DNA of 39,753 nt from NCBI GenBank assembly GCA_021769035.1, contig JAETTP010000019.1, positions 1 through 39,753 on the forward strand. Reading direction: 5' to 3'. The notes beneath the pieces are model-generated. The model saw only the letters and a program-made list of their open reading frames with translations, had not been told where the DNA came from and searched no databases. Numbering within the stretch: position 1 is the stretch's first letter; every line of letters starts with the position of its first letter. The stretch comes from Bacillota bacterium (GTDB taxonomy: Bacteria > Bacillota > Dehalobacteriia > UBA4068 > UBA4997). Shown here piece by piece: positions 29,409 to 31,659 of the stretch. The translations under genes and the position numbers were made by a program.

Positions 29409-29443
29409 GGCCTTGGGGGGAATTATGAGGGAGAGAAGCTTTG

Positions 29444-30250
29444 ATGCAGAAGATTAGTTTTTTGATGAACGGCGCGGCCGGCAAGATGGGACGGGCCTTG
29501 GCTTTGGGCCTGGGCAGCCGGGAGAATATGCGCCTGGCCGCGGCGGTGGACACCAAGCCGGCCGAGGTGGATTACGGCCTGCTTTGCGGCCTGGGGCAGC
29601 TGGGCTTGCAGCAGGAGCTGGATTTGGCGGCGGCTATCCGGCGCGAGCAGCCTGACGTGGTGGTGGATTTCACCAGTCCGGCTGCGGTGATGAAGAATAT
29701 CCGCACCTGCCTGGAGCTGCACACGCCGGCGGTGGTGGGCACCACCGGCTTTACGCAGGCCGATTACAAGCAGGTTAGCAAATGGTGCGCGGAGTTTAAC
29801 ACGCCGGTTTTTATCGCTGCCAACTTTGCCCTGGGGGCGGTGCTGCTGATGCGCTTTGCTCGTGAGGCGGTGAAATATCTGCCGCATGTGGAGGTGATTG
29901 AACGCCACCACGACCAAAAGCTGGACGCGCCCAGCGGCACGGCGGTGACGACCTTGGAAATGCTGGCGGCGGAGCGGCAGCCCCTGGCCCAGGGCAGCAC
30001 GCAGGAGTTTGAACGCCTGCCGGGCAGCCGCGGCGGCGAGCTGGACGGTATGCGCGTGCACAGCGTGCGCCTGCCGGGCTACGTGGCTACGCAGGAGGTG
30101 GTTTTCGGCGCGGAGGGGCAGGTGCTTTGCCTGCGGCACGACGCGCTTTCCCGCGAGGCTTACGTGCCCGGCGTGGCGATGGCGATGGAGAAGATTGTCA
30201 CCGTTAAAGAGGGCGTTTTGATGCAGGGGCTGGAAAGTTTGCTGGACTGA
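29444..30250 (+). CDS. dapB: 4-hydroxy-tetrahydrodipicolinate reductase
   Basis: NGAAGKMGRALA, VVGTTGF, ERHHDQKLDAPSGTA. Confidence 0.95.
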   Translation: MQKISFLMNGAAGKMGRALALGLGSRENMRLAAAVDTKPAEVDYGLLCGLGQLGLQQELDLAAAIRREQPDVVVDFTSPAAVMKNIRTCLELHTPAVVGTTGFTQADYKQVSKWCAEFNTPVFIAANFALGAVLLMRFAREAVKYLPHVEVIERHHDQKLDAPSGTAVTTLEMLAAERQPLAQGSTQEFERLPGSRGGELDGMRVHSVRLPGYVATQEVVFGAEGQVLCLRHDALSREAYVPGVAMAMEKIVTVKEGVLMQGLESLLD

Positions 30251-30273: not shown

Positions 30274-30325
30274 AGTAGCAGGAGCGCCAACTGGCGCTTC
30301 TGCTACTTTGTAGGCTTTTTTTGTT
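30274..30325 (+). terminator. Terminator after dapB
   Basis: AGTAGCAGGAGCGCCAACTGGCGCTTCTGCTACT then GGCTTTTTTT. Confidence 0.8.
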
Positions 30326-30352
30326 GACATTTTTTTACAAATAGGCTAAAAT
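30324..30352 (+). promoter_or_regulatory. Sigma-A promoter of peptide-coding RNA
   Basis: TTGACA (30324-30329), 17 nt, TAAAAT (30347-30352). Confidence 0.8.
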
Positions 30353-30435
30353 ATAAACAGGCTCCCCAAGCGAGGGGGCAGGTGAAGTTAATGATGGCAG
30401 GTGGTTCGTCAATCCTCCAGAAAGGAGGTGAGACT

Positions 30436-30528
30436 ATGCCTATACGTATAACGTTTCATATCGGCAATTTTACAATTACGATAATAGTTAAACGCATGCA
30501 TAAAAAGAACCGCCACTCTGCACAGTAG
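30436..30528 (+). CDS. 30-aa peptide MPIRITFHIGNFTITIIVKRMHKKNRHSAQ, candidate type I toxin-like ORF
   Basis: SD GGAGG inside hairpin CCTCC-AGAAA-GGAGG directly upstream; stop codon inside terminator-like hairpin. Confidence 0.65.
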   Translation: MPIRITFHIGNFTITIIVKRMHKKNRHSAQ

Positions 30529-30595
30529 CGGTTCTTAGCACTTAAATTTAAACCGTTATTGGCGAACCGCCGTTTATCGGCTTCACCTATACATA
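30505..30595 (-). ncRNA. Putative convergent antisense RNA from the minus-strand promoter to the shared hairpin
   Basis: Promoter at 30595-30623; ends at AAGAACCGC...GCGGTTCTTTTT in minus direction. Confidence 0.6.
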
Positions 30596-30623
30596 TTATA
30601 AAGCACCCGCAGGCTTTTGTCAA
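30595..30623 (-). promoter_or_regulatory. Consensus sigma-A promoter on minus strand
   Basis: Reverse complement reads TTGACA-17 nt-TATAAT. Confidence 0.85.
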
Positions 30624-30646
30624 GCTTGTGGGTGCTTTTGTTTTTA
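30600..30646 (+). terminator. Plus-strand terminator overlapping the antisense promoter
   Basis: AAGCACCCGCAGGCTT TTGTC AAGCTTGTGGGTGCTTTTGTTTTT. Confidence 0.7.
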
Positions 30647-30738: not shown

Positions 30739-31659
30739 ATGGCTGAAAAGATTGTGGCCTTGTTGGGCGGCGACCAGCGGGAGCTGCTGGTAGCGCCGGC
30801 TTTGCTGGACGCCGGGTTTGGCCTGCGCACCTTTGGCCTGCCGGCGGCGGAACTGCCTGCGGAGGCCAAGGCCTGCACCAGCCTGAACGAAGCGGCGCAG
30901 GGCGCGGATTTGCTGCTGCTGCCTCTGCCGGGAGTGCGGGAAAACGGTCGTTTGCATACGGCCTTTTTATCGCCGCCGTTGGTGACGACCAGCGATTTGG
31001 CCGGGACGGCGGCGGGAACTCCAGTGATGGTGGGCGTGGCCTCCAAATATCTGCGCGGCTTGTGCCAGGCCTTGCAGCTGCCGCTTTATGAGATTGCCGA
31101 GGCGGACGAGGTGGCGGTGCCAAACGCTATCCCCACGGCGGAGGGCGCTTTGCAGCTGGCTATGCAGCAGCTGCCGGTGACAATTCAGGACTTGCCGGCT
31201 TTGGTGCTGGGCTTTGGCCGGGTGGGCGCGGCCCTGGCGGAGCGTTTGCGGGCCTTGGGGGCTGAGGTTTGGGTGGCCAACCGGGGCGCGGAGCGTCTGC
31301 AAAAGGCCCGGCAGCAGGGCTATGCCGTGTGCGCCTGGGAGCAGCTGGCGGCGGAATTGGGCCGTTTTGCGGCGGTTTTTAACACGGTGCCGGCGTTGGT
31401 GCTGCCGGAAGAGCGTTTGCAGGCCATGCGGCCTGGGGCGTTGATTATTGATTTGGCTTCCGGCAGCGGCGGCACGGATTTTGCGGCAGCGGAAAAGCTG
31501 GGCCTGGCCGCCGTGCACGCGCTGAGTCTGCCGGGCAAGGTGGCTCCGCAGACGGCAGGCCAGCTGCTGGCCCGCGCTTATCCGCGGTTGATTAAACAGG
31601 TTTTGGCCTCCGAGCAGGAGGAAAGAAGCGAATTTTGGGGAAGGGCGGTGAAATTATGA
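30739..31659 (+). CDS. dpaA: Dipicolinate synthase subunit A
   Basis: NAD-binding VLGFGRVGAALAERLRALGAEVWVANRG; followed by subunit B and asd as in spoVF operons. Confidence 0.92.
   Translation: MAEKIVALLGGDQRELLVAPALLDAGFGLRTFGLPAAELPAEAKACTSLNEAAQGADLLLLPLPGVRENGRLHTAFLSPPLVTTSDLAGTAAGTPVMVGVASKYLRGLCQALQLPLYEIAEADEVAVPNAIPTAEGALQLAMQQLPVTIQDLPALVLGFGRVGAALAERLRALGAEVWVANRGAERLQKARQQGYAVCAWEQLAAELGRFAAVFNTVPALVLPEERLQAMRPGALIIDLASGSGGTDFAAAEKLGLAAVHALSLPGKVAPQTAGQLLARAYPRLIKQVLASEQEERSEFWGRAVKL

Follow-up and report, generated by a model that had tools for sequence, protein, structure and literature searches.

A probable type I toxin–antitoxin module between dapB and spoVFA, with a predicted β-hairpin peptide and an RNA frame shared by unrelated peptides

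The par/Fst system has direct 5' repeats, which make the two RNAs complementary there; in aapA/IsoA of Helicobacter and hok/Sok, the target of the antisense RNA is the mRNA's 5' region. The Hol_Tox family includes known type I toxins, namely TxpA, BsrG, and their relatives. The full-length aapA3 toxin mRNA combines long-distance 5'–3' pairing with local hairpins that sequester the Shine–Dalgarno (SD) sequence (PMC6733600). The bsrG/SR4 system has a 3' overlap and SD sequestration (PMC8309996), and antitoxin-only loci without a toxin have been reported for zor/orz orphans in E. coli (PMC11264685).

The window, which is the whole stretch of 39,753 nucleotides analysed here, contains a module of about 320 bases (30324-30640) between dapB (29441-30250) and spoVFA (30739-31659). 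Like bsrG/SR4 and txpA/RatA of Bacillus subtilis, it has convergent genes that overlap at their 3' ends, with an antisense RNA as the candidate antitoxin. It differs from them in its peptide, a predicted β-hairpin without a match to Hol_Tox (PF16935), and in the complementary end arms. An end-to-end mRNA lock and SD hairpins are common to aapA/IsoA, hok/Sok, and the module, where they are seen by folding and comparison, whereas in the module the antisense RNA lies over the mRNA 3' end and itself includes a copy of the 5' arm of the mRNA, and the peptide is unrelated. Antitoxin-only loci are shared with zor/orz, although sequences and architecture are unrelated. In mechanism, the module is closer to bsrG/SR4 and txpA/RatA (for the 3' overlap), combined with a 5'–3' lock of the hok or aapA type, than to par/Fst. 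The features of the module are as follows, each with its evidence.

30324-30352, plus strand: toxin mRNA promoter, TTGACA (30324-30329), 17 nt, TAAAAT (30347-30352); sequence
about 30362-30379, plus strand: mRNA 5' stem-loop GCTCCCC..GGGGGC; sequence, fold, comparison
30380-30412, plus strand: L arm, the 5' pairing arm, AGGTGAAG..GGTTCGTCA, whose predicted partner is the R' arm of the same mRNA; fold, arm comparison
30414-30428, plus strand: SD-sequestering hairpin CCTCC-AGAAA-GGAGG (CCTCC 30414-30418, GGAGG 30424-30428); folding, compensated stems
30436-30528, plus strand: ORF MPIRITFHIGNFTITIIVKRMHKKNRHSAQ, 30 aa, putative β-hairpin toxin; conservation, pN/pS, AlphaFold
30505-30536, minus strand: stop-codon hairpin AAGAACCGC..GCGGTTCTT over TAG, intrinsic terminator of the antisense RNA; sequence, compensatory changes
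30500-30588, minus strand: candidate antisense (antitoxin) RNA, ~90 nt, 5' end near 30588; fold, covariance model R1, identity in sister genome G005
30558-30588, plus strand: R' arm, the 3' pairing arm of the mRNA and, on the minus strand, the 5' arm of the antitoxin; folds
30595-30623, minus strand: antitoxin promoter, TTGACA (30623-30618), 17 nt, TATAAT (30600-30595), perfect consensus; sequence
30600-30640, plus strand: intrinsic terminator of the toxin mRNA, overlapping the antitoxin promoter; sequence, fold

A sequence-only reading of the window had named both promoters, the hairpin covering the SD of the 30-aa ORF, the stop-codon hairpin with T5 in the minus direction, and the plus-strand terminator overlapping the minus-strand promoter, and all of these are present as described. 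The 5' stem-loop, also named, is present in the window, but comparison of copies indicates that it is optional, many copies being without it. The sequence AGGTGAAG..GGTTCGYCAAT does stand at the 5' ends of both RNAs. The repeats had been called direct; because both RNAs carry the same sense sequence at their 5' ends, the repeat is in fact inverted in the DNA. The predicted antisense RNA is complementary to the toxin mRNA over the 3' UTR and the final codons of the ORF. The T-run (T5) of the antisense terminator lies opposite 30502-30506. In the window the stop-codon hairpin has such a run on the minus side only, and would there end the antisense RNA alone, while some copies have T-runs on both sides.

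The ORF is a small ORF (<60 aa) that has its own SD and promoter and bears signs of selection. Specifically, the core [M(P)x]RITxHIGxFTVTIxVK is conserved, including in A1/A3, third codon positions vary most (entropy of 1.0, 0.5, and 1.5 at the three positions), and pN/pS of the core is 0.27 over 597 pairs, which are non-independent and have pS near saturation. Judged by these sequence comparisons, purifying selection acts on the peptide. For the C-terminal NRH(SAK), whose codons lie in the stop-codon hairpin, conservation may therefore stem from the RNA, not from the peptide. AlphaFold models a β-hairpin with strands E3-9 and E12-18, with pLDDT of 87 and 86 over residues 1-20 and 59 in the tail. 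The peptide is thus predicted to be a cationic amphipathic β-hairpin, in line with its earlier description as β-like and basic. It had also been set apart from Fst, and neither Pfam nor NCBIfam gives an Fst/Ldr match at E up to 10. No match to the peptide was found in Pfam, NCBIfam, PHROGs, PADLOC, or PDB. Its motifs were not found in a literature search that covered mainly papers outside subscription journals, so that an earlier description is possible.

Other copies, a search for which had been proposed with the original description, recur in the same genome and in other taxa, and the ORF, the SD hairpin, and the repeats are conserved in homologous loci. The genome of the window has 8 places by DNA search and 17 by protein search; a peptide alignment search finds 19 ORFs there and 3, 4, and 6 in three of eight congeners (13 in total). 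In a wider sample of the phylum, the peptide is present in just 4/399 genomes and 2/267 genera. Modules recur in Peptococcaceae relatives, Oscillospiraceae, Lachnospiraceae, Gemmiger, Anaerotruncus, Vescimonas, and phages, and more than 100 whole modules were collected from gut Firmicutes and phage contigs. Most of these were found with a pattern confined to the 5' UTR and SD, GGCGGTTNGCC-N5-20-AAGGNGGTGAG, which matches in Oscillospiraceae, Lachnospiraceae, Gemmiger formicilis, Anaerotruncus colihominis, Clostridium porci, others, and viral contigs. The modules found in this way also share the position of the ORF, its length of 25-30 aa, the stop hairpin, the R arm, and the antisense promoter. 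Many other matches of the pattern are without a module (for example ATCCAAACAGGCGGTT..., Streptomyces, Shewanella) and are unrelated. A Vescimonas fastidiosa plasmid has four places and a faecal phage one, whereas a distant DNA search of phage records gave no match. Some modules lie in unannotated gaps of common gut bacteria, for example Vescimonas. Anaerotruncus colihominis DSM 17241 and Gemmiger formicilis ATCC 27749 are among the strains that have modules. L117 and L163 share assemblies with G005 and G008 (identical coordinates). So scattered an occurrence suggests that the modules have spread horizontally between gut bacteria.

The full plus-strand RNA folds with -108.9 kcal/mol (z = -8.0), a value reached by none of 200 shuffles. 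The fold shows end-to-end pairing of L with R' together with the SD hairpin and the stop-codon hairpin, while the minus-strand RNA folds into a 5' hairpin and the terminator. Within the plus RNA, the L arm is thus complementary to the 3' arm, R', and a copy of L stands at the start of the antisense RNA. Across modules, the L anchor pairs with R' in the full-length fold of 93 of 100, and local folding pairs the SD in 113 of 113. The SD stems are compensated across modules (CCTCC/GGAGG, CCACC/GGTGG, CTTAC/GTGAG); this and all other pair counts are phylogenetically non-independent and inflated by relatedness. L and R arms of the same module score 33.9 on average against 26.2 when swapped between modules, and the own R ranks at the 86th percentile. 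Among 32 distinct arm haplotypes, 40 of the differences between L and R are compatible with G-U pairing in the plus RNA and 16 are incompatible (p = 0.002, which ignores relatedness); the count was made at the level of haplotypes, as a single substitution type (L=G/R=A) dominates the raw L/R asymmetry. Alternatively, the arms could be similar because inverted repeats undergo conversion. The stop hairpin has a wobble asymmetry of 219 versus 59, which was set aside as strand-specific evidence because the stop codon sits in the 3' arm of that hairpin and confounds it. Separately, L012, L014, L017, L018, L021, L025, and L036 have ~100 bp of additional structured sequence (GCACCTGCGGTATTTGTTCGCACTAAGCTC...GCTAAGTGCTCAC) inside the L arm, in the 5' UTR. 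Contigs C12, C58, C100, and C101 break at this sequence, which is therefore possibly a separate repeat.

For the promoters, we used 104 modules picked by peptide class, without a promoter filter. An inward antisense promoter with at most one mismatch is found in 95 of them and a perfect one in 69 (mean in shuffles, 0.15); the plus promoter reaches the same limit in 45/104, compared with 0.1 in shuffles. In the alignment of the antisense RNA, 10 of 17 pairs are changed on both sides. Anatomy of promoter and terminator, the covariance model, and conservation together point to a cis antisense gene overlapping the toxin mRNA. Rfam gives no match at threshold, including none to fst antitoxin RNA, BsrG, or RatA, and the sub-threshold matches (best E 0.04; a BsrG fragment at E 1.4) were judged to be chance.

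Modules of the same build encode Hol_Tox peptides, and most of those with a YE/FE motif score above the Pfam cut-off of PF16935. Because Hol_Tox holds known type I toxins, its presence on this frame is the strongest homology-based pointer to function. Further short hydrophobic peptides on the frame are of the MGDKRWMKVLRFVLC... type, of the VEYLIVLY... type, and, in congener G006, MAELLQMLLMLFNK.... The 104 modules listed divide into 80 with the β peptide, 14 Hol_Tox-like, and 10 others, a sample biased by the search pattern and by the copies of the window's own genome. The exchange is best seen at L165, in a Candidatus Pseudobutyricicoccus MAG, where four modules stand in tandem, two with a TM-type peptide (M[IV]TYSELF...) and two with the β peptide. 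Between promoter and start codon, modules 2 and 3 of this array share 95% identity, whereas the ORFs themselves are unrelated (53% when a gapped alignment is forced). Elsewhere, a frame at G006:C19:10400-11150 (L234) has a different 26-aa peptide, MAELLQMLLMLFNKDVSEIRITIKKK, with no Pfam family match. Two loci in Oscillibacter, L126:-966 and L138:-82, have good antisense promoters and odd TTG-start peptides (LCGRDGCTLYSGFWCVW..., LWERNSCTSYSGFWCVW...), and are either another toxin class or decayed copies.

Losses fall on the toxin side. In the genus, the antitoxin, recognised by covariance model R1, lies beside 31 of 31 toxin ORFs with sufficient downstream sequence; a 32nd, on C90, was left out as it ends at a contig edge. 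At least eight clear antitoxin-only loci (G000 C21, C3:9999, C102, and C91; G005 C48, C5, and C9; G004 C6:96146) keep the antisense promoter, RNA, and terminator and have lost the toxin promoter, SD, and start, some of them retaining stubs of the final ORF codons. Three more antitoxin loci, in G004 and G001, are degraded. One of the eight is the site of the module itself in the sister genome G005, where dapB is 97% identical: the toxin half has been lost there, and the antisense RNA shows full-length identity. Other copies combine a damaged toxin with an intact antitoxin (G004:C16; C25:31297, with an ATG-to-ACG change). Loss of the toxin first, with the antitoxin kept, is what a toxin–antitoxin system predicts. 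R1 matches at L225 and L232 (E 0.004-0.005) were dismissed as chance upon reading. In the dapB-spoVFA gap of G004:C16 (L183), a terminator-like remnant, GCACCAACGCGG...GCGTTGGTG, resembles the end of another module type and suggests a lost module.

The module is probably a type I toxin–antitoxin system, to which we give a probability of roughly 0.8 on comparative grounds. This reading is supported by the Hol_Tox peptides on the same frame and the polarity of loss. The original proposal of a distinct type I toxin–antitoxin or RNA-regulated peptide module has thereby gained strong comparative support, from conservation of the ORF, the SD lock, and the antisense gene, from Hol_Tox on the same frame, and from copies in which the toxin is deleted and the antitoxin retained. 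We infer that both RNAs are transcribed. The plus strand would give a ~280-nt mRNA for the 30-aa cationic amphipathic β-hairpin toxin, with the SD buried in its local hairpin as the mRNA is made and, at full length, with L paired to R' so that the ends are locked together. The stronger inward promoter would give the ~90-nt antisense RNA against the final codons and the 3' UTR. The 5' arm of this RNA, a copy of L, would displace L from R' and lead to a duplex that may be degraded (by RNase III, as in bsrG/SR4) or left untranslated. When the antisense supply falls, 3'-trimmed mRNA would open and the peptide would be made, to harm the cell, probably at the membrane.

The inverted arms near both ends would also suit a non-autonomous, MITE-like mobile repeat, in which the arms are transposition ends and the peptide and the antisense RNA are passengers or minor in role. 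Numerous dispersed and tandem copies, presence or absence among congeners, and several copies at contig ends fit such a repeat, but it leaves the toxin-specific losses, in which the antisense gene stays, without explanation, and it sits poorly with a peptide under purifying selection and with unrelated peptides at the same reading position. Moreover, the arms lie within the transcripts, behind both promoters, and a target-site duplication is not established. We regard a mobile repeat of this kind as improbable in place of a toxin–antitoxin system, although the module may be both.

The predicted cationic amphipathic β-hairpin could instead be an antimicrobial peptide or belong to a peptide-encoding regulatory RNA (e.g., a secreted or signalling β-hairpin), the antisense RNA being an expression switch and not an antitoxin; tight RNA control would be fitting for a costly peptide. 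This too is unlikely, since the genes flanking the copies examined are unrelated ones, with no recognisable exporter among them, Hol_Tox peptides take the place of the peptide on the same frame, and antisense-only survivors fit neutralisation better. Finally, the sequence-only reading had seen an Fst/par-like architecture, and the convergent short RNAs, the small peptide, the SD-blocking fold, and the hairpin at the toxin stop codon are indeed as in par/Fst. True membership of that family is nevertheless very improbable, being contradicted by repeats that are inverted and not direct, by a peptide that is not Fst/Ldr, and by the lack of an Rfam fst antitoxin RNA.

Beyond this locus, the copies, relatives, and antisense-only loci point to a widespread toxin–antitoxin family that has been overlooked and that exchanges unrelated toxins on a common RNA frame. 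With less assurance than for the module itself, we favour the view that it is an unannotated type I superfamily of gut Firmicutes and phages, with one RNA frame (end-locked mRNA, 3' antisense) and interchangeable non-homologous toxins, including a new β-hairpin class that replaces the usual transmembrane helix. A widespread β-hairpin toxin class, if true, would broaden the type I kind. The exchange of toxins while the RNA frame stays constant indicates that RNA control can be a heritable cassette apart from the toxin, and thus the origin and spread of such systems become testable. Because some carriers are cultured type strains, experiments could readily begin.

Two observations concern the settings of the copies. 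A frame with a Hol_Tox peptide is found at L071:4117, in a MAG labelled Synergistaceae, and reflects either transfer between phyla or an error of binning. Copies often have a small regulator gene beside them, of ribbon-helix-helix-like (M[SP]xxGRPxxDNP...) or XRE type, as in the flanks of L002, L013, L014, L017, and L023.
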